DNA from: Flavobacteriales bacterium
GTDB lineage: Bacteria; Bacteroidota; Bacteroidia; Flavobacteriales_E; Vicingaceae
Direction: 5' to 3'
Length of the DNA: 64,000 nt
Assembly: GCA_015075325.1 (NCBI GenBank)
Contig: JABTUP010000004.1
Location: forward strand, 1-64,000
The notes below the pieces were generated by a model, which had not been told where the DNA came from, made no database searches, and saw nothing but the letters and a program-made list of their open reading frames with translations. This document shows positions 25,956-43,858 of this stretch, piece by piece. Numbering within the stretch: the stretch's first letter is position 1; each line of letters starts with the position of its first letter. Both the position numbers and the translations under genes were made by a program.

Positions 25956-27764
25956 TTATTCAATAATTTCTTTTAACAAACCATCGGTTTCTTGTTCTAA
26001 TGTTAATATATCGGCAGCAATTTCCTTTAAACTTCGCAAACCTTCGTATTTATAAAAATACTTGTTAAAAGCAATTTCGTAGCCTACTTTCATCTTCGTC
26101 TTGTCATACCAAGCATTGGAAGCAAAAGGCAGAACTTCTCTTTTGAAATATTCGGCTATGCTTTCTTTCATTGGCACATTTTCCGTGTCTTTCAGGTTGC
26201 TATCGCTTTTTGGTTTTCCTTTGTTGTCTTTTATGATGTTGCCTTTCTCATCTCTTTCGGGTTGGTGTACCGTAATTTGGTAAAAACCAAAATCTTCATT
26301 GTCGAAAATCTTGCTGTATTCGTTTTCTTCAAAGGCAAAATAGAGTTCTTGTATTTTCTGAATGTGTTCAGCAGCCAATTCTAATCTTTTACTTCCTAAT
26401 GGTTTTCGCATTTTAGCGTAAAACTCATTAGAGGAAGCGTTTATCAACTGTACTTTTCCTTTTCTATGTTCTTCTTTTACATTGGTAATCAACCAAACAT
26501 AGGTAGCAATTCCTGTATTGTAAAACATGTCATTCGGCAACTGAATGATACATTCCAATAAATCGTTTTCCAGTATGTATTGTCGTATGCCACTTTCTCC
26601 GCTACCAGCATCACCTGTAAACAATGCCGAACCATTGTGAATGGAAGCAATACGGCTTCCACCGTCTTTGGGGTCTTTCATTTTAGAAAGCATGTGCAAC
26701 ATAAACATCAATTGTCCGTCGTTGCTACGAGAGGTTAAACAAGTGGTTTCTAATTCGCCTTTAAAGTTTTTAATGGGTAAATTAAATCGTCTGTCAACAA
26801 TTTCTATTTTTTTACCTGCACCCACATTTAAGTTGTCAATGTCTTGTTTCCAAGTAGTACCGTAAGGAGGGTTGGTAAGCATAAAGTTGAATTTTAACTC
26901 AGGGTCGAAATCATATTCGCTTAATGTAGAACCAAATTTTATTTTATCGGGGTCTTCTCCTTTTAGCAACATATCCGATTTACAAACAGCATACATTTCA
27001 CCAGTATTTTCTTGTCCGTATAAATGGAAGGTAGCTTTCGATTTAATTTCGCCATCGGGGTCGGTAGCAAATTTTTTCGATTGTGTGAGCATAGCACCAG
27101 AACCTGCACAAGGGTCGTACACTAAAAATGTACCTTGTTTTAACTTATCTTTTACAGGTAAATAAACCAAGTGCGTCATCAACTCAATAATCTCTCTTGG
27201 GGTAAAATGTCGACCTGCTGCTGCATTGGTTTTTTCGTTAAACCTACGTATTAAATCCTCGAACATATAACCCATTGCCATAGGTGAAATTTTGTTGGGG
27301 CTTAACTCTACTTTTGGATTACAGAACTTCTCAATCAACGAAAAGGTAATGCCTGTTTTTTCAAAAGTTTCTAATTGGTTTCGGAACTTAAACTTGCTAA
27401 TAATATCTTGTACATTTTCGGAAAATCCGTTGAGGTAATCTAATAAGTTGGCATCTATGTTTTTAGGGTCTGCCAACAACTTTTTCATGGTATATTTTGA
27501 AGTGTTGTAAAATGCCAATCCAGTACCATGTTGTTCGCTAGTAAGCAAGCCTGATAAGTTGTCAATTTTGCCCTTGTATTCATCAAATGTTTTAAGGGTT
27601 ATATCTTTAGTTGGTTCAAGAGCTAAATCCAACCTTCTTAAAACGGTCATTGGTAAAATAACATCTTGGTATTGATTTTCTAAGAATTTATTAATCAATA
27701 CATCGTCTGCAACAGTCCAGATGAAGTTAATAATGGGATGAAGGTTCTGCGTATTTAAGCTCAT
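25956..27764 (-). CDS. hsdM: Type I restriction-modification DNA methyltransferase subunit (HsdM)
   Basis: The 602-residue protein has an HsdM_N helical domain (1-145) and an N6-adenine methyltransferase domain with the SAM motif DPCAGSG at 217-223 and the catalytic NPPYG at 298-302. AGRHFTPREIIELMTHLVY just before it is typical. It methylates adenine in the sequence chosen by HsdS. It is the first gene of the operon, with a promoter-like box about 25 bp upstream of its ATG. The order M, S, R is standard except for the RAYT and AAA_4 genes inserted in it. Confidence 0.95.
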   Translation of the reverse strand: MSLNTQNLHPIINFIWTVADDVLINKFLENQYQDVILPMTVLRRLDLALEPTKDITLKTFDEYKGKIDNLSGLLTSEQHGTGLAFYNTSKYTMKKLLADPKNIDANLLDYLNGFSENVQDIISKFKFRNQLETFEKTGITFSLIEKFCNPKVELSPNKISPMAMGYMFEDLIRRFNEKTNAAAGRHFTPREIIELMTHLVYLPVKDKLKQGTFLVYDPCAGSGAMLTQSKKFATDPDGEIKSKATFHLYGQENTGEMYAVCKSDMLLKGEDPDKIKFGSTLSEYDFDPELKFNFMLTNPPYGTTWKQDIDNLNVGAGKKIEIVDRRFNLPIKNFKGELETTCLTSRSNDGQLMFMLHMLSKMKDPKDGGSRIASIHNGSALFTGDAGSGESGIRQYILENDLLECIIQLPNDMFYNTGIATYVWLITNVKEEHRKGKVQLINASSNEFYAKMRKPLGSKRLELAAEHIQKIQELYFAFEENEYSKIFDNEDFGFYQITVHQPERDEKGNIIKDNKGKPKSDSNLKDTENVPMKESIAEYFKREVLPFASNAWYDKTKMKVGYEIAFNKYFYKYEGLRSLKEIAADILTLEQETDGLLKEIIE

Positions 27765-27785
27765 TTTATCTTTATTATAATCACG

Positions 27786-27793
27786 TAAAGATA
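27786..27793 (-). promoter_or_regulatory. Putative -7 box of the hsd operon
   Basis: The minus strand reads TATCTTTA, one base off TAnnTTTG, about 22 bp before the hsdM ATG. A clear -33 TTG was not found. Confidence 0.3.
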
Positions 27794-27878
27794 AAAATCA
27801 TTATTTGAACGGATAGAAGAATTAAATAAAAAATTAACCCGTTGGGTGTAATTATCAAGCAATTGTTGGTTGTAAAGT

Positions 27879-28601
27879 TTATTTTCCAAATACTTTTTTC
27901 AGTAAATCGGTAACTCGTGCAGAAGGATTATCACGAATTTTCAACTCTTCTTTAGCAACCTGAACAAACAATCCGTAAATCGCTTTTTCGGTAACATATT
28001 CCTCTAAATTAGGATTTACTTTTTCTACCATGGGTAATTTGTTGTAGGTACTAAAAACCGTTTCCCAATGTTTTGTTGCACCAACTTTATCAAGCGAAGT
28101 TTTAATAATGGGTTTGAATTTTTCTGTTAATCCAGCTGTAGTTGATTTTTTTAAGTATTCGGTTGCTGCATTTTTTTCGCCCTTTAAAATGCTCATGGCA
28201 TCGGTTATGCTCATGTTTTTAATTGCATCAACAAAAAGCGGTTTTGCAGCATTGGCAGCATCTTCGGCAGCTCTATTCATTGACAAAATGGCGTCGTCTA
28301 CTTTTTTTCCTTGCCCTAATTTACGGAGTTTTTCTTCTACTTTTTTTGCTTTTTCGGGCATGGGTATTTTAATTTCAGCGTCTTTAAAATAGCCATCGGT
28401 TTTTGATAGTTGAGCAACACCTTTCTCTACTCCTTTGTTTAAAGCTTCTTTAAGTCCATCTCCAATTTCCTTTTCAGTTAATCCTGTCGATTTTGGGGTT
28501 AAATTTTTTGGGACATTTTTTTTAATGCTGTTCCAATTTTGTGCATTAGTAATAGAAAATGAGGCGATTAATAAAATTGAAACAATTAAATTTATTTTCA
28601 T
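27879..28601 (-). CDS. DUF4197 domain protein, secreted
   Basis: The 240-residue protein has a signal peptide (residues 1-20, ending TNAQ) and is otherwise helical and Lys-rich. The conserved DUF4197 pattern is seen as LTEKEIGDGLKEALNKGVEK, GYFKDAEIKIPMPE and ITDAMSILKGEKNAATEYLK. The function of this family is not known. It is the last gene of the TPR operon: its ATG overlaps the stop of the preceding TPR gene by 4 bp (ATGA), which argues for coupled translation. The link to TPR signalling proteins may be incidental, since DUF4197 genes occur alone elsewhere. Confidence 0.88.
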   Translation of the reverse strand: MKINLIVSILLIASFSITNAQNWNSIKKNVPKNLTPKSTGLTEKEIGDGLKEALNKGVEKGVAQLSKTDGYFKDAEIKIPMPEKAKKVEEKLRKLGQGKKVDDAILSMNRAAEDAANAAKPLFVDAIKNMSITDAMSILKGEKNAATEYLKKSTTAGLTEKFKPIIKTSLDKVGATKHWETVFSTYNKLPMVEKVNPNLEEYVTEKAIYGLFVQVAKEELKIRDNPSARVTDLLKKVFGK

Positions 28602-30166
28602 TTGGTTTGATTTTTAAGTCGGTTAATATTACGTTCAATATATTTTTGTGAAGTTAATAAAGCATCTTGTATTCGTTTAGCGTAACGTATGCTGGCAATT
28701 ATTTCACTGTTTTTTTCCTCAAGTAAAAGATGAGCTTTTTCAACTATTTCTTTTTGTTGCTCCACTTCTTGTTTTTGGGCTTCAATTATGTTTTTTTGTT
28801 TTTTGGTTACTTGTAAACGGTTAAATACAAACCCAAAAAACAAAATTACCAACACTAAACCTCCTGCAATAGCGTATGAGATTATTTTTTGTTTGGCTTT
28901 AGCTTCTTGTTCTATAGCCAATTGCTTTTCGTGTTCAGCATCATCGAGTGCTTTTTGTTTTTCGTATTCGTATTTGGCTTGTTGATTAATTGCAATTTTT
29001 AAAGCTTTTTCAGAAGTTATACTATCTTTCATTTGTAATTCTAAGTTTCTCATATCAAGTGCTTCTTTCCAGTTTTGTTGTTGCATAGCAACATCATACA
29101 ACAAAGCTGCAGCACGTTGAATTTCTATTACAAAACCTACTTCTTTTGCAATAGATAATGCACGTAACCCTTTGGTTTTGGCATTGTTAACCAATCCTTG
29201 TGATAATTCTAAATGACCAATACTAGATAAGGTAGTTGCAATTCCAATTTTGTCGTTAATTTCTTCTTTTAGGTTTAAACTTTTTAAGAAAAAGTTCATT
29301 GCTAAGTTTGTTAAAGAATCGGCTTCTTTACTAGTTTTTGGTGTTAAAGATTGATATACTTTTGCAATATTGTGATAAGATTCAGAAATACCTCTTTTAT
29401 CTCCAATTTCTTCTTTTATTTTTAAACTTTTTTGATGAAAATCGATGGTTAAATCATACTCTTTTTTGATAAAATAGAGAATTCCCATATTATTGTAAGA
29501 ATATGCCAAACCTTTTTTATCACCAATTTCTTCGCTAATATTAAGGCATTTGGTGTAATAATCAATAGCTTGAGGAATATTATCTTGATTTTTATATAGA
29601 CTTCCCAAATTATTAAATACAGCAGCAATACCTTTTTTGTCGTTAATTTTTTCTCTGATTTTAAGGCTTTTATGGAAAAATTCAATAGCAAATGGAATAT
29701 TTCCTAAAGTATAATGAAGCAGCCCAATATTGTTGTAAGAAGAGCCTAGCCCAATTTTATAATCAATATCTTCTAATATAGAAATGCTTTTTTGATAGTA
29801 TTCGAGAGCTAATACAGAATTTCCAACGCTTTTATAATAGTATCCAATATTATTTAATGCACTCGATAAAGAAATTTTTAATGATTTTGAGGTTGCTTTA
29901 TCTGGATTTTTTTGCAAAGTATTTTCTGCAATTTTTTGTGCTTCAACAGATAAGATATACATTGAATCTCTGTTTGAAACACCAAAAAACTCACTCAGAT
30001 TAGTATAAGCTGCTGCTTTGGTTGTGTCGTTGCTGTTTTTATCGTCGATAATTGCTTTTAATTCTGCAATTTGATCTTGTTGCTCGCGTGAAAACTGTGC
30101 TATTGAATTGGTTACAAGCATCAACATTAAACCAATTGTTATCGAAATTTTTATTCGTTTAAACAT
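28598..30166 (-). CDS. TPR receptor-like membrane protein lacking the SpoIIE phosphatase domain
   Basis: The 522-residue protein has a signal peptide (residues 1-23), about seven TPR repeats (for example LALEYYQKSISILEDIDYKI), a coiled coil (YEYEKQKALDDAEHEKQLAI), one membrane helix near 428-448 (SYAIAGGLVLVILFFGFVFN) and a cytoplasmic coiled coil. It ends ASIRYAKRIQDALLTSQKYI then ERNINRLKNQTK. In full-length paralogues the same YAKRIQ motif is followed by a SpoIIE phosphatase domain, absent here. The middle of the protein is nearly identical to that of the phosphatase encoded just upstream, so the two arose by duplication. It could pair with the phosphatases through the coiled coil; this is inference. 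Confidence 0.85.
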   Translation of the reverse strand: MFKRIKISITIGLMLMLVTNSIAQFSREQQDQIAELKAIIDDKNSNDTTKAAAYTNLSEFFGVSNRDSMYILSVEAQKIAENTLQKNPDKATSKSLKISLSSALNNIGYYYKSVGNSVLALEYYQKSISILEDIDYKIGLGSSYNNIGLLHYTLGNIPFAIEFFHKSLKIREKINDKKGIAAVFNNLGSLYKNQDNIPQAIDYYTKCLNISEEIGDKKGLAYSYNNMGILYFIKKEYDLTIDFHQKSLKIKEEIGDKRGISESYHNIAKVYQSLTPKTSKEADSLTNLAMNFFLKSLNLKEEINDKIGIATTLSSIGHLELSQGLVNNAKTKGLRALSIAKEVGFVIEIQRAAALLYDVAMQQQNWKEALDMRNLELQMKDSITSEKALKIAINQQAKYEYEKQKALDDAEHEKQLAIEQEAKAKQKIISYAIAGGLVLVILFFGFVFNRLQVTKKQKNIIEAQKQEVEQQKEIVEKAHLLLEEKNSEIIASIRYAKRIQDALLTSQKYIERNINRLKNQTK

Positions 30167-30176
30167 ATTTTATTCT

Positions 30177-30269
30177 TTAGATTCTTACGCCAATAATACA
30201 AACATTCCCGAATCAAGTTCGGGACAGGCTGACTTGTTTGCATCATATTCTTACGCCTATGATGCAAAC
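30177..30269 (-). other. Duplicated gene 3' end with REP-like hairpin after the SpoIIE gene
   Basis: Read on the minus strand, the true end (VCIIGVRI-stop, stop at 30243-30245) is followed by a hairpin element containing TCCCGAACTTGATTCGGGA. Then comes a second sequence that would again encode VCIIGVRI-stop (30177-30203). The stop codon also sits inside a 12-bp perfect inverted repeat (30236-30247 / 30258-30269). The 44 bp at 30199-30242 are identical, in inverted orientation, to 46028-46071. Confidence 0.85.
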
Positions 30270-32618
30270 ATCGTCAACTTGTTCTAAATTACCTTTCCAG
30301 TTTTCAAATGCATTATTGAGTAATTCTTTTTGCTCGTCCATTGTTTTGCCTTGTATTCCCAACAACAACTCTTTTAGTTGTGCTGCTTTAAACTTTTTAC
30401 CTTTTTCTCCACCAAATTGATCTTGATATCCATCGGTAAAAATGTAAATGGTATCTCCTTTTATTAAATTAATTTGGTGGGTTGTAAATGGCTTTGTTTG
30501 GTCGGTTTTACCTATTGGCTGCTTGTCGGGTTTGTATTCTAGCAACTCATATTCGTTATTACTTCTCGATACTCCTCCTTCGTCGGAACTCGAAGTGACA
30601 GTACGAATAATCCACAGCGGATTGTTTGCTCCTGACCACTCCAACTGGTTGGTTTGTTGATTTAACGAACACAACGAAATATCCATGCCGTCTTTAACAT
30701 CTTCTTCGTTTTTTGAAAGTCGTTCTACAACCAATTCTTTTGTACGGTCTAATATTTTTCCAGGTGTAACGATGTGTTCTTCCAACACCGTTTTGGATAA
30801 TGCGTTAGAACATATTACGCTTACCATTGCCCCTGGTACGCCATGCCCGGTACAATCGGCGGCAGCAAATAAAATTAGTGGTGAGTGTTGGGTTTTGTGT
30901 GATGGGTTCTCATCACCCTCCACTCTCCACTCACTACCTGTTTTTGTTTCCATCCAATAAAAATCGCCTGCCACTATATCTTTTGGTTTGTAAAGTATAA
31001 ATCCGTTTTTCAGGTTTTCTGCTAGTGTATATCGAGAGGGTAATATGGCTTCTTGAATTCGTTTGGCATAGGTAATAGAATCTGTTATCTCCTTGTTTTT
31101 CTCTTCTAATTCGTGATGGGCTTTTTCTACTACTACTTTTTGTTCTTCTATTACTGCTTTTTGTTTTCGAGTAACTTGCAAACGGTTGAATACAAATATC
31201 AAAAACAAGGCTACTAAAATCAATCCACCTGCTGTTGCATAAGTAATTACTTTTTGTTTGGCTTTTGCTTCTTTTTCTATTGCCAACTGTTTTTCATGTT
31301 CGGCATCATCGAGTGCTTTTTGTTTTTCGTATTCGTACTTGGTTTGTTGTTCGATACTCGCTTTTTGTGTTTTATCATTATTTAAGCTATCTCGCATTTT
31401 AATATGAAGCTTATACATCTGTAAAGCTTCCATCCCTTTTTTTTCCTGTTCATAAATTTCTGCCAACAAATTACTAGAGTTTCCAATATTTTCTGGGTAT
31501 CCCATTTTTTGGTAGATTGATAATGCTTTATGAATATAAGTTTTTGCGTTTTCTCTTTCACCTAACTTTAAATAAACTCCCCCAATATTGTTTAATGATA
31601 TACCAACACCAATTTTATCGTTTGCTTCTTCTCTTAATTTCAGGCTTCTTTGGTAATATTCCATTGCTTTTTGAAGTCCTAATTTTTTACAACTTTCTTT
31701 ACTTAAGTTACATTCAGGATCTCCTATTGCATCGTAAATTGCTCCAATATTATTTAACGACATGGCTATTTCCTTCTTGTTTTTCAATTCCTCTCTAATT
31801 ATCAAACTTTTTTTATAGTATTCTAATGCAATTTGTTTTCCTGCATATAAACAACTATCTTTTTCTTGCTTACAATTTGGGTCTCCATAAAAATGAAAAA
31901 GATAGCCTATATTATTAAGCGATTCTGCTATACCAAACTTAAACCCTATACTTTTTCTTATTTCTAAACTTTTGGTAAAGTATGTTAATGCTTGTGAAGT
32001 ATTATCTTGAAGTAGGTGGATAACTGCTAGATTATTGAGTGTTGTTGATGCCCCTTCTTTATCTCCAATTTTGTCTCTTATTTTTAAACTTTCATGGTAA
32101 TAGTGTATTGCTTCTTGAATATTCCCGTGATTTTTATGAAAATATCCAAGGTAATTTAGAGCCTCTCCAATATCTGGTTCATTTCCAAGAAATTTTCGTA
32201 TTTTCAACGATAGTTCATAATGCCTCAGTGCATTGTTATAATTACCATATTCATTAAAAAAATATGCTTTGTTGTGAATTGATGTTGCTAATGGTGATAA
32301 CAATTTTTTTGTCGTTTCAACATTTTTACTTTTTTTAATTTTTTGTATTAAAAAATCATAGAGATAATTATTGTATTTAGGCCAAATTTTTTCATTGTAA
32401 CATTCTTCTATTATGAATTCTAGTGCTGCAATTTTATAAAGTTCATTTTTTGATTCGTGAAATGATTTTAAACAACTATCTACCATCAATTTTTCTCCAA
32501 CATTGAATACATCTAAATCAAGGCTATCAACCAAATAGAATTTTTTATCGGCAACTGTTTGCGAAAAGCCTTCAGTTAATGACACAACAAAAAGTGCTAT
32601 GTAAATTAGTTTTTTCAA
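30243..32618 (-). CDS. TPR sensor protein with C-terminal SpoIIE/PP2C-type serine/threonine phosphatase
   Basis: The 791-residue protein has a signal peptide, a long TPR array (about 80-400), a coiled coil (YEYEKQKALDDAEHEKQLAI), one membrane helix (TYATAGGLILVALFLIFVFN) and a cytoplasmic coiled coil with ITDSITYAKRIQEAILPS. The SpoIIE phosphatase follows, with metal-binding Asp residues in AAADCTGHGVPGAM, DGMDISLC and the terminal DDVCIIGVRI. Such proteins usually dephosphorylate anti-anti-sigma (STAS) proteins; no partner is encoded here. The start is a TTG whose TTGA overlaps the stop of the upstream gene. Two in-frame repeat insertions disturb the phosphatase domain: TVTSSSDEGGVSRSN after NPLWIIR, and TGSEWRVEGDENPSHKTQ after FYWME. 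Both fall where loops are expected, so activity may be kept. Confidence 0.9.
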   Translation of the reverse strand: MKKLIYIALFVVSLTEGFSQTVADKKFYLVDSLDLDVFNVGEKLMVDSCLKSFHESKNELYKIAALEFIIEECYNEKIWPKYNNYLYDFLIQKIKKSKNVETTKKLLSPLATSIHNKAYFFNEYGNYNNALRHYELSLKIRKFLGNEPDIGEALNYLGYFHKNHGNIQEAIHYYHESLKIRDKIGDKEGASTTLNNLAVIHLLQDNTSQALTYFTKSLEIRKSIGFKFGIAESLNNIGYLFHFYGDPNCKQEKDSCLYAGKQIALEYYKKSLIIREELKNKKEIAMSLNNIGAIYDAIGDPECNLSKESCKKLGLQKAMEYYQRSLKLREEANDKIGVGISLNNIGGVYLKLGERENAKTYIHKALSIYQKMGYPENIGNSSNLLAEIYEQEKKGMEALQMYKLHIKMRDSLNNDKTQKASIEQQTKYEYEKQKALDDAEHEKQLAIEKEAKAKQKVITYATAGGLILVALFLIFVFNRLQVTRKQKAVIEEQKVVVEKAHHELEEKNKEITDSITYAKRIQEAILPSRYTLAENLKNGFILYKPKDIVAGDFYWMETKTGSEWRVEGDENPSHKTQHSPLILFAAADCTGHGVPGAMVSVICSNALSKTVLEEHIVTPGKILDRTKELVVERLSKNEEDVKDGMDISLCSLNQQTNQLEWSGANNPLWIIRTVTSSSDEGGVSRSNNEYELLEYKPDKQPIGKTDQTKPFTTHQINLIKGDTIYIFTDGYQDQFGGEKGKKFKAAQLKELLLGIQGKTMDEQKELLNNAFENWKGNLEQVDDVCIIGVRI
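30561..30600. repeat. In-frame REP-like repeat in the SpoIIE domain
   Basis: The segment acttctcgatactcctcctt followed by cgtcggaactcgaagtgaca forms an imperfect palindrome (ACTTCTCGA near one end, TCGAAGT near the other). It encodes the extra SSSDEGGVSRS between NPLWIIR and YELLEY. It is a different repeat type from that at the same site in the two paralogues. Confidence 0.7.
30877..30939. repeat. In-frame simple repeat insertion in the SpoIIE domain
   Basis: The tract is built from GTGAGTG and CCACTCTCCACTCACT, a common intergenic repeat style in Bacteroidota. It encodes SEWRVEGDENPSHKTQHS between FYWME and the conserved LILFAAADCTGHG. Confidence 0.6.
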
Positions 32619-33973
32619 TTGGTTTGGTTTTTCAATCGGTTAATATTGCGTTCAATGTATTTTTGCGAAGTTAATAACGCGTCTTGTATTCGTTTGGCGT
32701 AGCGAATGCTGGCAATTATTTCTTCGTTTTTTTCTTCTAATTGTTGATGAGCTAATTCTATTTCTAACTTTTGTTTTTGGGTTATTTTAAATCGGTTGAA
32801 CATAAATCCTGCAAAAACCAACACCAAAGCCAATCCTCCAAATAAAGCCAATTGTTGGTTACGTTTAGCTTTTAGTTCGGCATTTTGTTGGGCTATTTGT
32901 GCGTCGCGTATTTCGTTTGCTTTTGCATTAGCAACACTATCGGCTGCAGCTTTTTTATCGTAATTATATTTGTATTCTTGTCGAATAACTTCTTTCTGAT
33001 TTTCTTCACTCAAAATGCTGTCTCGGGTTTTAATATACAAATCGAACATGATTAAAGCTTCCTTGTGTTGTTGTGTTTCTTTATAGATTTCAACTAATAA
33101 TTTTGACACATCTCTTGTTTCAATGGCAACTCCAATTTCGTTAGCTATATTCATGGCTTTTTTTCCATATTCTAAAGCCTTTTTAGTGTTTTTTTGATGG
33201 AAATAAATATCAGCTAAATTTCGCAACGATGATGCTACTCCTTGTTTATTTCCAGCCTCTTCATCAATTTTTAAGCTTTTATTAAAATAAGTAATGGCGG
33301 TTGTGTATTCGCCTTGTTTGGCATATATGCTTCCAATATTGTTTAATGATAATGCAATGCCTGATTGAGAGCCTAATTCTTCTCTAATTTCTAAACTTTG
33401 TTTGTTGTATTCTAAAGACTTAGCATAGTTTTCTTTAAAATAATAAATGTTTGCCATATTATGATACGACATGGCAATACCTTTTTTGTCGTTTATTTGT
33501 TTTTTGATGTCTAAGCTTTTTAAATAGACCTTAAGTGCTTGATTATAATCTTTTTGTTCAAGATAAATTCCACCAATATTATTTAATGAGGAAGCAATTC
33601 CTTTTTTATCGTCTAATTCTTCATAAATTTTTAACGCTTTTGTATAATTTTCGATGGCTTTCGCATAATTTCCTTGAAAATAGTTTGAGGCACCAATAAT
33701 AATATAAGCAAAGCCTTTTCTTTTCTGCAAGTTTTTTTTGTTGGTTATTTCTAAAACTTTTGTGGCATATTCTTCGGCTTGATTATAATTTCCTGTTTGG
33801 CTTAATTGCTTCGATAATTCAATCAACACATCGCATCTTACCGAATCTTCCATTTGTTTATTGAGTTGGTTTTGAAGTGAATCAATAATAGGATTGTTGT
33901 TGTTTTGAGCCGCTAACACTATCCTAGAAAAACAGAATAAAATAAAAAACAATATGTAGGTTAATTTTTTCAA
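32615..33973 (-). CDS. TPR receptor-like membrane protein lacking the SpoIIE phosphatase domain
   Basis: The 452-residue protein has a signal peptide (ending VLAAQ), six or seven TPR units (such as NYAKAIENYTKALKIYEELD), a helical linker (DSVANAKANEIRDAQIAQQN), a membrane helix (QQLALFGGLALVLVFAGFMF) and a short cytoplasmic coiled coil. It ends at IRYAKRIQDALLTSQKYIER, plus NINRLKNQTN. The linker, membrane and tail segments are almost identical to those of the next protein in the operon, while the TPR parts differ. The start is a TTG in a TTGA overlap with the upstream stop, and its own stop makes the same TTGA overlap with the downstream phosphatase gene. The frame is intact; the short form looks functional rather than decayed. 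Confidence 0.85.
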   Translation of the reverse strand: MKKLTYILFFILFCFSRIVLAAQNNNNPIIDSLQNQLNKQMEDSVRCDVLIELSKQLSQTGNYNQAEEYATKVLEITNKKNLQKRKGFAYIIIGASNYFQGNYAKAIENYTKALKIYEELDDKKGIASSLNNIGGIYLEQKDYNQALKVYLKSLDIKKQINDKKGIAMSYHNMANIYYFKENYAKSLEYNKQSLEIREELGSQSGIALSLNNIGSIYAKQGEYTTAITYFNKSLKIDEEAGNKQGVASSLRNLADIYFHQKNTKKALEYGKKAMNIANEIGVAIETRDVSKLLVEIYKETQQHKEALIMFDLYIKTRDSILSEENQKEVIRQEYKYNYDKKAAADSVANAKANEIRDAQIAQQNAELKAKRNQQLALFGGLALVLVFAGFMFNRFKITQKQKLEIELAHQQLEEKNEEIIASIRYAKRIQDALLTSQKYIERNINRLKNQTN

Positions 33974-35325
33974 TGGGTTTGGTTTTTCAATCGGTTAATG
34001 TTGCGTTCAATGTATTTTTGTGAAGTTAATAAAGAATCTTGAATTCTTTTTGCATAACGAATACTGGCAATTATTTCTGCGTTTTTTTCTTCGAGTTGTT
34101 GATGAGCTAATTCTATTTCTAGTTTTTGTTTTTGGGTTATTTTAAATCGGTTGTACATAAATCCTGCAAAAACCAGCACTAAAGCCACTCCACCAAATAG
34201 TGCCAATTGTTGGTTGCGTTTAGCTTTTAGTTCCGATTTTTGTTGTGCTATTTGTGCGTCACGTATTTCGTTTGCTTTTGCATTAGCAACACTGTCTTCG
34301 GCAGCTTTTTTTTCGTATTCGTATTGAAATTGTTTTTGTATGCTGGCTTTTTGTATGGTTTCATTATTAATTGAATCATTCATTAAAACATATTCTTCGA
34401 AGTAATTTAGTGCTTTTTTATACTCATTTTTTGCATAATAAAATTCGTACAAAGCAAAAGAAGAGCTTGAAATTGTTGAAGGAAATCCCATTTGTTTAGC
34501 TAAAGTGTACGATTCAATAAAATACTTTTCGGCTGTTTTTTTATTGTTAAGCTTTAAATACGTGTTGCCTAAATTTTTTAAATAAATTGAGCAGCTTGAT
34601 AAATCTTTTTGTTTTATAATTTCAATGGCTTCTTCAAAATATTGAATAGCTTCTTTGTATTTTTTTGAATTAAAATACATCATTCCAATATTGTTTGTTG
34701 ATGTAGCAATAGCCGTTAAATCGTTGTTTTGATTATTTAGCTCCAAACATTTTTTAAAATAGTTTATGGCTAATTCATTTTGCTGAAAATAGGAATAGCA
34801 ATATCCTAAGTTGTTGTAAATAATTGATAACCCTCTATTATCATTGGTTAGTTGAAATAGTTTTTCGCATTTTATAAAAGACTCTAAAGCTTTTTTAGTA
34901 TCGCCTTGGCTTAGAAAAACATTGCCAATAACCAAAAGCGAGTATGCAATACCGGAGGTATCGTTTATTGATTCTCTAATTTTTAACGATTTGTAATAAT
35001 ACTCTAAAGCTTTTTTTATGTTTCCTTGTCCGTTATAAATATAGCCCGAGCTATACAAAGCCTCGGCATATTTTTTTACAATAAATGGAGATTGACTTTG
35101 TTTTAATTTTTGTTGAGTAAAGTTTAAAACTTTCAAATAATAAAATAGAGCAGTATCTGGTTCTGTTTCATAATTTAAATCACCTAGTTCTAATCCACTA
35201 ATTATTTTTAGCGAATCTGAATTGGTGTTGTTAAAAAAGTTTCTGATAGAATCGTTGTTGTTTATGCCAAATGAAAGAAATGGCAAACAAACTAAAAATC
35301 CTATAAAATACTCCTTTAGCTTCAT
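33970..35325 (-). CDS. TPR receptor-like membrane protein lacking the SpoIIE phosphatase domain
   Basis: The 451-residue protein starts with a signal peptide (FIGFLVCLPFLSFG). It has TPR units such as GNIKKALEYYYKSLKIRESI and YKEAIQYFEEAIEIIKQKDL, then the DSVANAKANEIRDAQIAQQK linker, a membrane helix (GGVALVLVFAGFMYNRFK) and a coiled coil. The tail is IRYAKRIQDSLLTSQKYIER then NINRLKNQTH. It differs from its neighbour mainly in the TPR sensor, which suggests different inputs feeding the same output module. TTGA overlap with the next gene indicates coupled translation. Confidence 0.85.
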   Translation of the reverse strand: MKLKEYFIGFLVCLPFLSFGINNNDSIRNFFNNTNSDSLKIISGLELGDLNYETEPDTALFYYLKVLNFTQQKLKQSQSPFIVKKYAEALYSSGYIYNGQGNIKKALEYYYKSLKIRESINDTSGIAYSLLVIGNVFLSQGDTKKALESFIKCEKLFQLTNDNRGLSIIYNNLGYCYSYFQQNELAINYFKKCLELNNQNNDLTAIATSTNNIGMMYFNSKKYKEAIQYFEEAIEIIKQKDLSSCSIYLKNLGNTYLKLNNKKTAEKYFIESYTLAKQMGFPSTISSSSFALYEFYYAKNEYKKALNYFEEYVLMNDSINNETIQKASIQKQFQYEYEKKAAEDSVANAKANEIRDAQIAQQKSELKAKRNQQLALFGGVALVLVFAGFMYNRFKITQKQKLEIELAHQQLEEKNAEIIASIRYAKRIQDSLLTSQKYIERNINRLKNQTH

Positions 35326-35329
35326 TTGC

Positions 35330-36742
35330 CTATTTTGATGTTTTCAATCGGTTAATATTCCGTTCAATGTATTTTTGAGAAGTTAATAACGCATCTTGTA
35401 TTCGTTTGGCGTATCGAATACTGGCAATAACTTCGTTGTTTTTTTCTTCTAATAAAAGGTGGGCTTTTTCTACTATTTCTTTTTGTTGTTCAATAACCGC
35501 TTTTTGCTTTTGGGTAATTTTAAATCGATTATACATAAATCCTGCAAAAGCTATAACTAAAATAAGCCCTCCATACAAACCATATTGCTGGTTTCTTTTA
35601 TTTTTTAGCTCCAATTGTTGGAGTTTTTTATCGATGTTTAACAATTCAATTTCTTTTTCTTTTCCACTCAACTCTAACCTTACAGCCATTTGTGCAATTT
35701 TTGTGGCACTTTCTTCTTGGTAAATAGAATCGTTTAAATAAACATACAATTCCATGTATTTAAAGGCGTTGGCAATATCTCCCGCACTCTTATATACTTT
35801 ACTCGACTCTAAATAGGCTGATGAAATAAGGTTTCTACTATTTGTTTGTTGTGCCAATGTTAATGCTTCTAACAAAAACCGTTTTGCTGTGTCGTAATTT
35901 TTCAGTTCGGCATTAATTTTTGCAGATAAAATGTAAGCTAAAGAAAGGGGCGATGTAGTTCCTAAATTTTTATAAATATGGATTGATTCTACCAGCATTT
36001 TTTGAGCCTTATTCAATTCTTTTCGTTGAAAATAAATTTCGGCAAGACTCATTAAGGTATTTGCCATTTCTTTTTGATGGTTCATCTTTCTATCAATCAA
36101 CAACGATTTGTTGTAGTAATATGCTGAAGAATCTAAAATTCCGGCTCTCAAATAATTACTTCCAATGTTATTGGTAATTATTGCAATAGAAATGCTGTCG
36201 TTGGTTAAGGTTACTTTTTTAAGTGCTTTTTTTTGTATTTCAATTCCTTTTTCATATTGTTTAAGTCTTCCCCAAACCGACGCCAAATAAGTTGAGGCAA
36301 TTAAATACCTATCATCAAAATTGTTTTTCAGCGAAATTTCCATGGATGCTTTTAATTCCTCAATTGCCTTGTCGTATTCAGCAATTTCCATGTAGAGATA
36401 TCCTAAATTTCCATGTTGTCGAGCAACTTTATAAGCATCTTTTATTTCTTTTGCTTTTAACAAAGCTTTGTTGTAATAATCAATTGATTTAACAAAGCTG
36501 CCTTTATGCCAAAAAGCATCACCTCCTATTTCAAGAGCATGATAATGTATCGTATCATGAATTTGCTTTTTTGCAACAAGAAAATCTGCAATTAAAATTG
36601 CCGAATCGGCCACAGCATACCTAAGTTGATGAGCTTTTTTTAGTAATACAGAATCAGCAATGTCATTAAACGATTGTGTTTTTACTTTAATACTAAAAAG
36701 TAATAAAAATGTGGCAAGCAAAATTTTGAAATAACTCATCAT
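35330..36742 (-). CDS. TPR receptor-like membrane protein lacking the SpoIIE phosphatase domain
   Basis: The 470-residue protein has a signal peptide (residues 1-22), TPR units (for example FVKSIDYYNKALLKAKEIKD), a helical linker with alternating Leu (SGKEKEIELLNIDKKLQQLE), a membrane helix (QQYGLYGGLILVIAFAGFMY) and the coiled coil ending IRYAKRIQDALLTSQKYIER, then NINRLKTSK. It is the most diverged of the four short proteins and lacks the usual NQT end. Its ATG overlaps a relic copy of the upstream phosphatase gene's stop (ATGA), as if the original junction had been coupled before an insertion moved the real stop 57 bp away. Confidence 0.85.
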   Translation of the reverse strand: MMSYFKILLATFLLLFSIKVKTQSFNDIADSVLLKKAHQLRYAVADSAILIADFLVAKKQIHDTIHYHALEIGGDAFWHKGSFVKSIDYYNKALLKAKEIKDAYKVARQHGNLGYLYMEIAEYDKAIEELKASMEISLKNNFDDRYLIASTYLASVWGRLKQYEKGIEIQKKALKKVTLTNDSISIAIITNNIGSNYLRAGILDSSAYYYNKSLLIDRKMNHQKEMANTLMSLAEIYFQRKELNKAQKMLVESIHIYKNLGTTSPLSLAYILSAKINAELKNYDTAKRFLLEALTLAQQTNSRNLISSAYLESSKVYKSAGDIANAFKYMELYVYLNDSIYQEESATKIAQMAVRLELSGKEKEIELLNIDKKLQQLELKNKRNQQYGLYGGLILVIAFAGFMYNRFKITQKQKAVIEQQKEIVEKAHLLLEEKNNEVIASIRYAKRIQDALLTSQKYIERNINRLKTSK

Positions 36743-36797
36743 ATCTTCACTCCTATTATGGTTCGACTTCGCTCACCACAAGCTGCTTCATATCCGT
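36739..36797 (-). other. REP-like insertion with duplicated 3' end of the SpoIIE gene
   Basis: After the true end of the upstream phosphatase (VCVIGVKI-stop at 36798) comes about 38 bp that include GAGCGAAGTCGAACC, a common Bacteroidota repeat. A second copy encoding IIGVKI-stop follows at 36739-36759. The relic stop overlaps the ATG of the next gene. Confidence 0.8.
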
Positions 36798-39074
36798 TCA
36801 TATTTTCACTCCTATTACGCAAACATCGTCAATTTGCTCTAAGTTTCCTTTCCATGTTTCAAACATGTTATCAATAATTTGTTTTTGTTCGTTTAATGGT
36901 TTTCCTTGAACAGAAAGCAACAGTTCTTTTAACGATTTTAACTTAAATTTTTTGCCTCTTTCACCACCAAATTGGTCGGCATATCCATCGGAGAATGTAT
37001 AAATGGTATCGCTTTTTTCGAGCTGAATTTCTTGAACTGAAAATGGTTTCATTTCGCCTAAAAATAAACCAACAGGTTGTTTGTCGGGTTTAAATTCAAT
37101 CAGTTCATAAGATTCTGGGTCAAGCCCTGAATGACGAATGGAACGAATCAACCAAAGCGGATTATTAGCTCCAGAAAAACTTAACAAGTTAGTATTCTTA
37201 TCCCAAACACAGAGAGCCAAATCCATTCCGTCTTTTTGCTGCGTATCAACTCCTTTTTGTTCTAGTGCTTTAATAATTTTTGCTCGTAGTTTGTTTAATA
37301 TTTCGGCAGGGTTGGTTATGTTGTTTTCTACTACAATTTCGTTAAAAAAACTTATTCCAAGCATGCTCATAAATGCACCAGGAACACCATGTCCTGTACA
37401 ATCGGCAGCTACCCAAATAGCCAAGTTGTTTTCGGTTTGAAATGCCCAAAAGAAATCTCCGCTAACTACATCTTTTGGTTTAAGCAATACAAAATGTTCT
37501 TTAGAAATCTGCTCCCAATAATTGTCGCTGGTTAATAAAGCTGTTTGAATACGTTTGGCGTAACTTATACTGTCCGTAATTTCCTGATGTTGCTCTTCAA
37601 CTATCTCTTTTTGCTTGGTTATTTCAGCATTTTTTTGAGCAAGCAATTCGTTTGCTTTTTTTCGTTGCTGATTGTTTCTAACCACTACCACAGCAAAAAC
37701 CAATAAAATTAACCCTACCACAAACGAACCATACAATTGCATCGATTTTCGTTTGCTTTCTTCGCTTGCTTTTGCCAATTCAACATCTTTTAACGCGTTG
37801 GTTTTATTTAACAAAGCTATTTCCTGTTCCTTTCTTTCGCTTTGAAATTTTTTCTCCATTTCGTTAATCATCTCCGCATTTTTGGTGTTGCTAACACTAT
37901 CGTTAAATGTTACATAAAGCGATTGGTGATGATATGCTTTTTCAAAATCTCGAACTTTGCTGTATGCTTTTGATAATCCTTGATGAGCCTTAATGATGTA
38001 ATCCATATAACCCGTATTTTCGGCATTGGTAAGTGCTTCTTTAAAAAGTGAAATGGCTTTTTGATGCTGTCCTTTTTTATCGTAAATATTTGCAGCTGCA
38101 ATTTGCGATACCGCTAATTTTCCAAAACTGCCAATCTCCTTTTTAATTTGGATAGATTTTAGTGCATATTCCAAAGCCTTATCATCGTCGCCAGTAAGCT
38201 CATGATTAACACTCAAATTGTTGAAACATTGAGCAATAAGTGGTTTATCTGCAATTTTCTCAAAAATTTCTAGTGCTTCATAAAATCGTTTTCGTGCTTC
38301 AAGGTAATCTTTTAAATAATCAAGAGCAGTACCTTCGCTGGTTAGTGCAACTCCATAAAGTTTTTGGTTGTTTACTGCTTTTGCAAGAAGTTTTTGTCTG
38401 ATGTAAATTTTTAATGCTTCGTTATAATTTTTTTGACCAATATAAATTAACCCAATATTTGAAATGGTTCCAATTATCATGTTGGTATCTCTAGCACTTT
38501 CGTAAATAGACAATGCCTTTATGTAAAGTTTTAATGCTTCGGTTGGATTACCAGCAATATCGTGCATAATTCCTGTATTATTAAATGCTTGTCCTGCACC
38601 AATACTATCGCCAAGCTGCATTTTTAATATTCCAGATTGTTCAAAATTTACACGAGCGTTTTCGTAATCTCCAGCATAATAAAAAGCAATGCCAATATCG
38701 TTATATGAGCCTGCAACGCCTTCTTTGTTTCCAGCTTTTTGATGGATAGCTAATGCTTTTTGATAATAGTTGTTCGCCAAAACATAATCATCGTTGGCTT
38801 GAGCTGTAAGGGCATACTCGCGATGTGCTTCGGCCAAAAATTTAGTATCTTTTATTTTTTTTGCTTGGTCTATCGCTTTTTGGTTAAAATAATATGCCGA
38901 ATCTTTATTGGTTTTTCGATAAACCAAAGCCAATTGTTCATAGGCAACCACTTTTGCAGTATCGTATTTGGCTTGTAGAATAAAATTCATCAAACTGTCC
39001 GTTTGATTGTTGGCATACAACAAATTACCCGAAATCGAGCAAAAAATCATTATTATTAACCACTTCTTTTTCAT
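36798..39074 (-). CDS. TPR sensor protein with C-terminal SpoIIE/PP2C-type serine/threonine phosphatase
   Basis: This 758-residue protein is first in the operon. It has a signal peptide (ending LLYANN), a TPR array to about residue 400, a coiled coil, a membrane helix near 455-475 (YGSFVVGLILLVFAVVVVRN) and a coiled coil with ITDSISYAKRIQTALLTS. The SpoIIE phosphatase follows: DVVSGDFFWAF, AADCTGHGVPGAFM, KDGMDLALC, SDGYADQFGGERGKKF and a terminal DDVCVIGVKI. All acidic metal ligands expected are present. A REP-derived stretch (RHSGLDPES) is inserted in frame between NPLWLIRSI and YELIEF. Unlike its two paralogues it has no insertion after the FFWAF segment. An IS982 element lies 74 bp upstream of the ATG and may affect its promoter. 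Confidence 0.92.
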   Translation of the reverse strand: MKKKWLIIMIFCSISGNLLYANNQTDSLMNFILQAKYDTAKVVAYEQLALVYRKTNKDSAYYFNQKAIDQAKKIKDTKFLAEAHREYALTAQANDDYVLANNYYQKALAIHQKAGNKEGVAGSYNDIGIAFYYAGDYENARVNFEQSGILKMQLGDSIGAGQAFNNTGIMHDIAGNPTEALKLYIKALSIYESARDTNMIIGTISNIGLIYIGQKNYNEALKIYIRQKLLAKAVNNQKLYGVALTSEGTALDYLKDYLEARKRFYEALEIFEKIADKPLIAQCFNNLSVNHELTGDDDKALEYALKSIQIKKEIGSFGKLAVSQIAAANIYDKKGQHQKAISLFKEALTNAENTGYMDYIIKAHQGLSKAYSKVRDFEKAYHHQSLYVTFNDSVSNTKNAEMINEMEKKFQSERKEQEIALLNKTNALKDVELAKASEESKRKSMQLYGSFVVGLILLVFAVVVVRNNQQRKKANELLAQKNAEITKQKEIVEEQHQEITDSISYAKRIQTALLTSDNYWEQISKEHFVLLKPKDVVSGDFFWAFQTENNLAIWVAADCTGHGVPGAFMSMLGISFFNEIVVENNITNPAEILNKLRAKIIKALEQKGVDTQQKDGMDLALCVWDKNTNLLSFSGANNPLWLIRSIRHSGLDPESYELIEFKPDKQPVGLFLGEMKPFSVQEIQLEKSDTIYTFSDGYADQFGGERGKKFKLKSLKELLLSVQGKPLNEQKQIIDNMFETWKGNLEQIDDVCVIGVKI
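37111..37142. repeat. In-frame REP-like repeat in the SpoIIE domain
   Basis: On the minus strand this reads CGTCATTCAGGGCTTGACCC followed by AGAATC, a dispersed repeat type known from Bacteroidota. It encodes RHSGLDPES. The same element, with two base changes, sits at the homologous site of the gene ending at 46027. Confidence 0.75.
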
Positions 39075-39151: not shown

Positions 39152-40173
39152 AACGTGAGTTCGATATAAGATTAACCGATTCTTTGAAGTTTATCAATAT
39201 TAATGTTTGGTTTAGTAGGATAAAAAGAATAAGCAATAAGACCTGATATCAGATTGATTATGAAGTTGTTAAAACTTCTGTGTCTAGTGTGTTCAATTTG
39301 GCACTGGTTCTTTAAGATGTCATTAACACTTTCAACAACAGCTCTTTTTCTTAACAATATTTTATCGTAAATATTCATTAAAGCGTTTTTCATATTCTTT
39401 TTTATCTTGGTAACAAGATGGATTCCATCCACAAAAAGTTGTTCGAATAAATCCTGTCCCAAATATCCTCTGTCGGCAAATATTTTTCCAAAAACTTTAT
39501 TGTGAAATGCTTTATCTTTCAATGGCTGCCTATCATCCACATTGCCTTTTGTGATTAAAAAATCAATTATTTCACCTCGTTCATTAATGATAATGTGAAG
39601 TTTAAAACCAAAGAACCATCCCATTGAACCCTTACCTTTTTCTGCAATATTTTTAAATACTTTGTTTTGATGTTCTCTTTTTGGATGACATACTTTAATC
39701 AACGTAGAATCCATAAAAGAAATACCTGAACACTTACCTAAACAACGCATTTGAAGAAACAGAACCATCGGTACAATAGCTTTTTGCTGTAGTTCTACAA
39801 ACCGATTGTAGGAAACTGTTTCTGGAAACTCGCTTTTCATGTATTTGCATACATGATTGATGTAGAAGTGTTTTAGACAACGGTAGCCTTTTAAATGAAA
39901 CAGAAGCATAATTGTTATTATCTCACTTTGAGACATTCGACACTTTTTGTTACGTTTTTTTGTTGATGAACCTTCTTCTATTGAATGTTCATCTATGGTT
40001 TTGTTTAATTCTTTACAAAAATCGTCTATTAAACAGAAAATTTCAATAACTTTATCTTTGGATTCCATAAGCAGAATTATTAGTTATATATTTGATTTTG
40101 AACCAGTTAAATATACTAATCTTTCTGCTTATTTTCTATTTTTTTTCTCATTTTTTTATATCGAACTCACGTT
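39152..40173. mobile_element. Complete IS982-family insertion sequence
   Basis: The element of 1022 bp has terminal inverted repeats of 17 bp (AACGTGAGTTCGATATA and its exact complement at 40157-40173). It carries one transposase gene and is flanked by the 4-bp direct repeat ATTT (39148-39151 and 40174-40177). It lies between the TPR operon and pgk. A solitary copy of the same end occurs at 59756-59771. Confidence 0.9.
39172..40068 (-). CDS. IS982 family transposase
   Basis: The 298-residue protein has the DDE triad in the expected places: D120 in SGISFMDSTLIKVCH, D199 in GKIFADRGYLGQ and E246 in RKRAVVESVNDILKN. The stretch FFGFKLHIIINERGEI is typical of the family. The frame is intact and the terminal repeats are perfect, so the element could be active. 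It catalyses cut-and-paste movement of its own 1-kb element. Confidence 0.93.
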   Translation of the reverse strand: MESKDKVIEIFCLIDDFCKELNKTIDEHSIEEGSSTKKRNKKCRMSQSEIITIMLLFHLKGYRCLKHFYINHVCKYMKSEFPETVSYNRFVELQQKAIVPMVLFLQMRCLGKCSGISFMDSTLIKVCHPKREHQNKVFKNIAEKGKGSMGWFFGFKLHIIINERGEIIDFLITKGNVDDRQPLKDKAFHNKVFGKIFADRGYLGQDLFEQLFVDGIHLVTKIKKNMKNALMNIYDKILLRKRAVVESVNDILKNQCQIEHTRHRSFNNFIINLISGLIAYSFYPTKPNINIDKLQRIG

Positions 40174-42473: not shown

Positions 42474-42812
42474 ATGAAATATATTTTACCATTAATCCTT
42501 TTTTTGTTTGTTCTTATTACAAGTACATCAGCTCAAAAAATATACAAAGTAAAATACGAAAGCCAAGCCGACTTAAAGGTGTATATTGTTAAGTACGAAT
42601 CGCAATGCGATTTAAAAGTGTACATGGTAAAATATGAAAGCCAAGCCAATAAAGATGGTTTGTGGTACTCAGTCGATTACGAATCTCAAGCCAACAAAAA
42701 GGCCTATTTTGTGGATTACGAGAGCCAAGCCGACCTAAAAATTTTCTTTGTCGATTACGAAAGTCAAGCAGGTTGGAGAAATCAATCAAAAGCACACTTG
42801 TTAAAGTTTTAG
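42474..42812 (+). CDS. Secreted DUF6150-like repeat protein
   Basis: The 112-residue protein has a signal peptide (ending TSAQ) and six near-identical units of 13-15 residues built on V(K/D)YESQA(D/N). They are seen at KVKYESQADLKVY, IVKYESQCDLKVY, MVKYESQANKDG, SVDYESQANKKAY, FVDYESQADLKIF and FVDYESQAG. The pattern matches the small DUF6150 family, which I recall being discussed as a predicted knotted fold; that recollection should be verified. Its function is unknown. DNA copies of the unit are similar enough for slippage or unequal crossing-over. Confidence 0.75.
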   Translation: MKYILPLILFLFVLITSTSAQKIYKVKYESQADLKVYIVKYESQCDLKVYMVKYESQANKDGLWYSVDYESQANKKAYFVDYESQADLKIFFVDYESQAGWRNQSKAHLLKF

Positions 42813-43726: not shown

Positions 43727-43858
43727 TTTTATAGTTTTTCGAAACCTATTTTTAATTTTCTAAATGTATTTAGTAAAATTGTTAAACTCTAGCTCAACAA
43801 ACCTAAACTTGTTGTATCTTAGCTGAAGTTGAAAAAAACTGTTTTTGGCTTTATTTTA

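Follow-up and report, generated by a model that had tools for sequence, protein, structure and literature searches.

Gene organization of the locus

The window, i.e., the entire stretch of 64,000 nucleotides that was analysed, belongs to contig C34 of a 3.3-Mb genome assembled in 62 contigs. Its minus strand carries a run of genes in the order L2, s4, s3, s2, L1, s1 and a DUF4197 gene. A preliminary description had assigned the whole of 27879-39074 to six TPR membrane receptors. The six open reading frames are indeed present, but the segment 27879..28601 encodes a DUF4197 protein; this gene is the last of the run, is joined to s1 by an ATGA overlap and is probably a passenger. TPRs were detected by Pfam in all six receptors, SpoIIE (PF07228) in two of them only. 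These are L2 (36798..39074, 758 aa, SpoIIE domain 36801-37412), which heads the run, and L1 (30243..32618, 791 aa, SpoIIE domain 30246-30872), both fused TPR-membrane-SpoIIE phosphatases. The four others, s1 (28598..30166, 522 aa), s2 (32615..33973, 452 aa), s3 (33970..35325, 451 aa) and s4 (35330..36742, 470 aa), display TPR, membrane helix, coiled coil and YAKRIQ motif in that order and gave no match to PF07228, the C-terminal domain of the TPR-SpoIIE fusion family. In s1, for example, a signal-like N-terminus is followed by TPRs, membrane helix, coiled coil, a putative docking tail and the stop codon. In the following, “short” designates a TPR-membrane-coiled-coil protein without SpoIIE that stops soon after YAKRIQ...YIERNINRLK. 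Open reading frames, Pfam matches and C-termini agree with the initial view that four such proteins, all ending at the same place, are interleaved with two TPR-SpoIIE fusions.

The proposal that most junctions overlap was overstated. Overlaps of 4 nt (TTGA or ATGA) occur at s3/s2, s2/L1 and s1/DUF4197, s4 and s3 are separated by a 4-nt gap, and gaps of 55 and 76 nt lie downstream of the two SpoIIE genes. Each of these larger gaps contains a palindrome-like insert. The end of L2 (AATAGGAGTGAARATATGA) recurs as a direct repeat flanking the insert between L2 and s4 (36743..36797). At the insert between L1 and s1 (30167..30242, CCCGAACTTGATTCGGG), only part of the L1 end is repeated in this way. 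Both look like a repeat element inserted into an ancestral ATGA overlap. Further upstream, about 80-100 bp from L2, an IS-like element (39153-40172) with 17-bp inverted ends encodes a DDE transposase (PF13612, 39172-40068). A third TPR-SpoIIE fusion of 732 aa is located on the opposite strand (43829-46027), about 4.8 kb from the run, and a 112-aa open reading frame of YESQ(A/C)(D/N) repeats with a signal-like start is found at 42474-42812.

In a hydropathy scan, s1, s2 and s4 show a hydrophobic stretch at the N-terminus, and s1, s2, s3, L1 and L2 a membrane helix ahead of the coiled coil; the helix of s4 falls below the scan threshold, yet its sequence aligns with the other receptors at this position. 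Given the hydrophobic N-terminus and the membrane helix preceding the coiled coil, the TPR part is therefore most likely periplasmic, while coiled coil and tail are most likely cytoplasmic.

A constrained tail with a common end point

The C-termini of s1-s4 read YAKRIQD(A/S)LLTSQKYIERNINRLK, followed by NQTK, NQTN, NQTH or TSK. The candidate docking tails lie at 28598..28684 in s1 (YAKRIQDALLTSQKYIERNINRLKNQTK, then stop), 32615..32701 in s2, 33970..34056 in s3 and 35330..35413 in s4, all on the minus strand. Up to RLK, 34 of 37 residues are invariant across the four proteins. This near-identity had been thought to include the linker but is confined to the tail: in the membrane/linker part, s3 is 94 % identical to s2 and s1 and s4 only 72–79 %, so that the proteins are close in pairs only.

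At the DNA level, 26–56 % of the synonymous tail sites differ between pairs as against 3–6 % of the nonsynonymous sites, which corresponds to pN/pS values of 0.07-0.13. About half of the synonymous sites differ in five of the six pairs and a quarter in s2/s4, a pattern far outside what chance would give. Because synonymous differences are many and nonsynonymous ones few, the shared tail is, judging from these substitutions, the result of constraint on the protein and not of recent copying. Local duplication or conversion has evidently also occurred, as the 3' parts of s2 and s3 are 89 % identical in DNA over 356 bp extending past the stop codon. In their membrane/linker parts, s1 and L1 share 79 % DNA identity along 224 bp.

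The end point is not peculiar to this locus. Among 145 distinct shorts from many Bacteroidia genomes and many families, 144 end 15–25 residues past the motif and one at 51, a distribution that speaks against random truncations with varied end points. Neither of the signs expected of pseudogenes, relaxed constraint and varied end points, was found in the shorts, and the suggestion that they are not decayed copies thus holds. The eight shorts of the own genome, which are spread over three contigs, share 88 % identity in the 16 residues that follow YAKRIQ, vs. 29 % among 16 fusions. In other genomes the short tails are less uniform (48–79 % identical among shorts), and gene conversion could be part of the cause of the identity within a genome.

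A free-standing SpoIIE phosphatase

Four of these eight shorts lie beyond the window, three on contig C21 and one alone on C56. Between the C21 shorts is a free SpoIIE gene (27744-28451) whose product of 236 aa starts MEYMTDDKNFFILYKPKDIVSGDFYY and has no TPR, membrane helix or linker; the next short can begin at a TAATG formed with the stop codon of the free gene. The tails of the window shorts match those encoded beside this phosphatase and are unlike the corresponding segment of L1 or L2, which places the window receptors with the free enzyme, although the window locus itself contains fusions only and no free phosphatase. From the tail common to all eight shorts and the much lower identity among the fusions, we conclude that the window shorts most likely recruit the free phosphatase rather than the adjacent fusions.

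Comparable arrangements exist in sister genomes. One of them (G003, contig C41) has five shorts, the free gene and two more shorts in succession, and another (G001) has the free gene with one short on contig C105 and a window-like group of two shorts and one fusion on contig C69. The free form adjoins shorts at no fewer than a dozen loci, at least, and many shorts have no adjoining fused gene. Around the free gene, G000, G001 and G003 have conserved neighbours that appear unrelated, as far as their sequences tell.

L1, L2 and the free gene on C21 all match PF07228 above the cut-off. The metal-site residues D23, D46, G49, D174, G175, D227 and D228 are invariant in 36 free forms and correspond in the alignment to D457, D474, G477, D600, G601 and D653 of SiaA (PMC7647112). 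Together with the predicted folds, this assigns the free form, L1 and L2 to the PPM/SpoIIE phosphatases, with a predicted Ser/Thr phosphatase activity. In a phylogenetic tree, 30 of 37 free forms group in one clade (support 95), six are placed nearby with weak support and one (L137) falls among the fusions. The free form thus likely has one main origin, and more origins are possible. The L137 sequence, a SpoIIE open reading frame of 237 aa next to a TPR open reading frame devoid of the motif, was disregarded, being probably a broken fusion. The PPM alpha1 helix, beta1 and an acidic loop are better conserved among free forms than among fusions, by more than the general difference between the two sets, an observation of little weight since orthologues are here compared with paralogues.

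Complementary boundaries

The spacing between YAKRIQ and FILYKPKD is exactly 17 residues in 152 of 162 fusions. The shorts stop after YIERNxxRLK, and the free phosphatases, which start M..KNFFILYKPKDIVSGDF, begin 6–14 residues before FILYKPKD in 34 of 37 cases. In a model of the C-terminal part of L2 (pLDDT 94.8), a long helix extends to residue 47 and is followed by a short helix (residues 51-57) and beta-strand 1 (61-66). On the basis of this model and that of the free form (pLDDT 83), the shorts are predicted to contain both helices, and the free form to start at beta-strand 1, where the shorts stop.

The closest solved structure to the fused C-terminal part as well as to the free form is SiaA of Pseudomonas aeruginosa, the PP2C phosphatase of the SiaABCD system (PDB 6K4E; PMC7647112). 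Residues 26-292 of the fused model align with SiaA 409-662 (Z 32.2, rmsd 1.7). The free model aligns only with SiaA 441-662 (Z 25.3, rmsd 2.2) and is therefore without the N-terminal helices involved in SiaA dimerization; in other words, the linker helices that a SiaA-type enzyme bears on the same chain are absent from it. The SiaA dimer is formed by helices alpha1, alpha2 and alpha3 (PMC7647112), and in our reading of the alignment alpha1 and alpha2 make up the stretch 409-440. It is this stretch, missing from the free form, that the short tail matches, albeit weakly (E 0.002). In a SiaA-type phosphatase, the tail would thus correspond to the last part of the linker helix together with the short helix that comes after it.

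Genomic co-occurrence of shorts and free phosphatase

Shorts are present in all 22 free-positive genomes tested. By comparison, none of the 66 free-negative genomes tested, comprising 19 rich in fusions and 47 unselected ones, contains an intact short among the matches listed, a scope in which weak cases may have escaped notice. The corresponding Fisher p value of 3e-21 ignores kinship, and shared ancestry means that it overstates independence. As the genomes are related, contrasts inside genera provide better evidence, and four genera offer them. Both components occur in G000, G001 and G003 of genus g1 and neither in G002; both in G294 of genus g36 and neither in G056, G118 or G153; both in G253, G280, G304 and G327 of genus g56 and neither in G095; both in G091 and G194 of genus g52 and neither in G130, each absence referring to the matches listed.

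Other samples lead to the same association. In 18 of 19 genomes picked for their shorts, exactly one free form of 234–251 aa was the best match, with free forms scoring 336–418 bits and fusions at most 318. The sole exception is G066, where no free phosphatase was detected despite an array of seven shorts (L087); its assembly may be incomplete. Among 60 relatives, the free form is found in seven, the same seven in which shorts were seen, and among 295 genomes of the class it occurs in 19, as a single copy in each. All 15 free-positive genomes newly found in this way carry shorts. A twentieth match in the class, in G153, turned out to be a fusion. This 5.5-Mb genome has 76 SpoIIE matches, many of them tandem fusions (L332-L338, L343), and no free form or short among the matches listed.

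Short-like remnants in free-negative genomes are broken: one is a 141-aa deletion derivative (G019), the other a tail whose frame is interrupted and which lacks an open reading frame (G034). A number of candidate shorts were rejected as fusions, contig ends or broken fusions, namely those in G006, G008, G015, G019 (contig C9), G025, G031, G032, G033, G035, G042, G054 and G153 and, on inspection, twenty candidate places in the random free-negative set.

In a phylum-wide sample of 296 genomes searched with a strict threshold, the free form was recovered from the own genome only; outside these Bacteroidia lineages it is either rare or diverged. Such scarcity may explain why it went unnoticed. A literature search found no paper on TPR-SpoIIE proteins in Bacteroidota, on split PP2C enzymes or on the YAKRIQ motif, and no published description of a split receptor/free-phosphatase arrangement.

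What do the short receptors bind?

The idea that the shorts are phosphatase partners, each contributing its own sensor, can be retained as far as dedicated proteins with individual sensors are concerned. The partner originally proposed, the adjacent fusions, is probably wrong. According to that proposal, shorts and neighbouring TPR-SpoIIE fusions would form mixed dimers through the coiled coil, the shorts acting as extra sensor inputs or as dominant-negative brakes. The two types of gene do share a run here and in the G001 group with two shorts and a fusion, and s1 and L1 are related in DNA across their membrane/linker parts. However, the shorts are conserved past YAKRIQ, and in this segment those of the window resemble the ones flanking the free phosphatase and differ from both fused neighbours. 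Many shorts have no fused gene alongside, and many genomes carry TPR-SpoIIE fusions without shorts; the 66 free-negative genomes tested, although often rich in fusions, yielded only the broken remnants described above among the matches listed, and shorts and free form occur together. Hetero-dimers with the adjacent fusions are a possible arrangement, but the comparative evidence points elsewhere and we regard them as unlikely.

Slightly less probable still is that the tail serves to bind a non-phosphatase partner such as a kinase, a SiaB-like protein or a scaffold, with the free phosphatase simply acting in the same pathway. Co-occurrence and adjacency by themselves establish a functional link only, and SiaC-family genes are present; yet in the fusions, as in SiaA, the core is preceded by a segment homologous to the tail, and precisely this segment is absent from the free core. 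The shorts could finally be truncated, decaying copies of TPR-SpoIIE genes with ends made alike by gene conversion. The similarity of s2 and s3 past their stop codons is what such a process would leave behind, but it accounts neither for tails in which synonymous sites have diverged far more than nonsynonymous ones in most pairs, nor for the end point common to shorts from many families, nor for the same tail on unlinked contigs. This last explanation is very improbable.

A probable split phosphatase with exchangeable receptors

We consider it probable that the shorts are receptor subunits of a split SpoIIE/PPM phosphatase, and we incline, with somewhat less assurance, to the view that the four shorts of the window use the C21 enzyme in trans. 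Each short would sense through TPRs in the periplasm, cross the membrane with one helix and continue in the cytoplasm as a coiled coil that leads into a docking tail; this C-terminal tail would contribute the linker helix plus the short helix after it, but no catalytic core. The core would come from a single gene per genome, as a soluble protein of about 236 aa that has no sensor, membrane helix or linker helices of its own. The tails of a receptor dimer may dock on the free core, capturing two cores, and so complete a dimer interface of the kind that pairs two phosphatase domains in RsbU and SiaA. A signal perceived by the TPRs would alter the coiled coil and thereby turn the bound enzyme on or off. 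One catalytic subunit would thus serve several receptors, which may compete for it, with L1 and L2 in the same run being self-contained versions of the same machine. The conserved end point, the complementary boundaries, the tail constraint, the adjacency and co-occurrence of the genes and the predicted fold of the catalytic parts are observed; docking, activation, competition, membrane topology and substrate are what we infer from them.

Known phosphatases provide parts of this scheme. SiaA has a linker of the same kind (IGDSLDYASLIQRAILP) and dimerizes via helices alpha1-alpha3. In SiaA, however, linker helices and core are on one chain, whereas here the core is one protein and the sensor with its linker helices another; several sensors go with each core, and the sensors are TPRs. 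The phosphatase domains of Bacillus subtilis RsbU are activated by dimerization, which is brought about by a crossing helical linker packed on PPM alpha1; a separate protein, RsbT, controls this linker (PMC12143880). A PPM phosphatase under the control of a helical linker is thus common to both cases, but RsbU bears its own linker, while here the linker sits on the partner protein. The TPR-SpoIIE fusions of Bacteroidota, of which 16 with linker and SpoIIE were compared in the own genome, share the order of TPR, membrane helix, coiled coil and YAKRIQ but are covalent, with SpoIIE fused and one sensor per catalyst.

The substrate may be a SiaC-like phosphoprotein. The preliminary description had assumed STAS proteins; among solved structures SiaA is the nearest relative, and the genome encodes SiaC-family phosphoproteins. 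SiaC (PF09345), a component of the SiaABCD pathway, is encoded by five genes in the own genome and found in 51 of 60 relatives. One of these genes (C61:88815-89168 in G000) closely follows a SpoIIE match (C61:87463-88044). With SiaC-family genes present and one located close after a SpoIIE gene, SiaC-like substrates appear as plausible as STAS proteins. Similar SpoIIE-SiaC pairings occur in G002 (contig C6) and G056 (contig C44) and hint at the substrate of this phosphatase group.

PPM/SpoIIE phosphatases are viewed as one-piece sensor-enzymes in which a linker helix switches the catalytic domain. In eukaryotic PP1/PP2A holoenzymes and in chemoreceptor-CheA assemblies, one catalytic subunit is common to many exchangeable targeting or receptor subunits. 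The latter comparison is a working likeness only, with no claim of homology, the present case involving a PPM fold and TPR receptors. On balance, we favour a bacterial design of the PP1/PP2A type in Bacteroidia, in which one soluble catalytic PPM phosphatase per genome would be competed for by several TPR receptors (eight here) carrying linker and dimerization helices, so that receptors could multiply without new enzymes. If true, a split that leaves the linker helices on the receptors would offer a direct test of the linker model, namely whether a tail supplied in trans activates the core. It would also explain runs of phosphatase-less TPR membrane proteins and bring a receptor-sharing logic to bacterial serine/threonine dephosphorylation.
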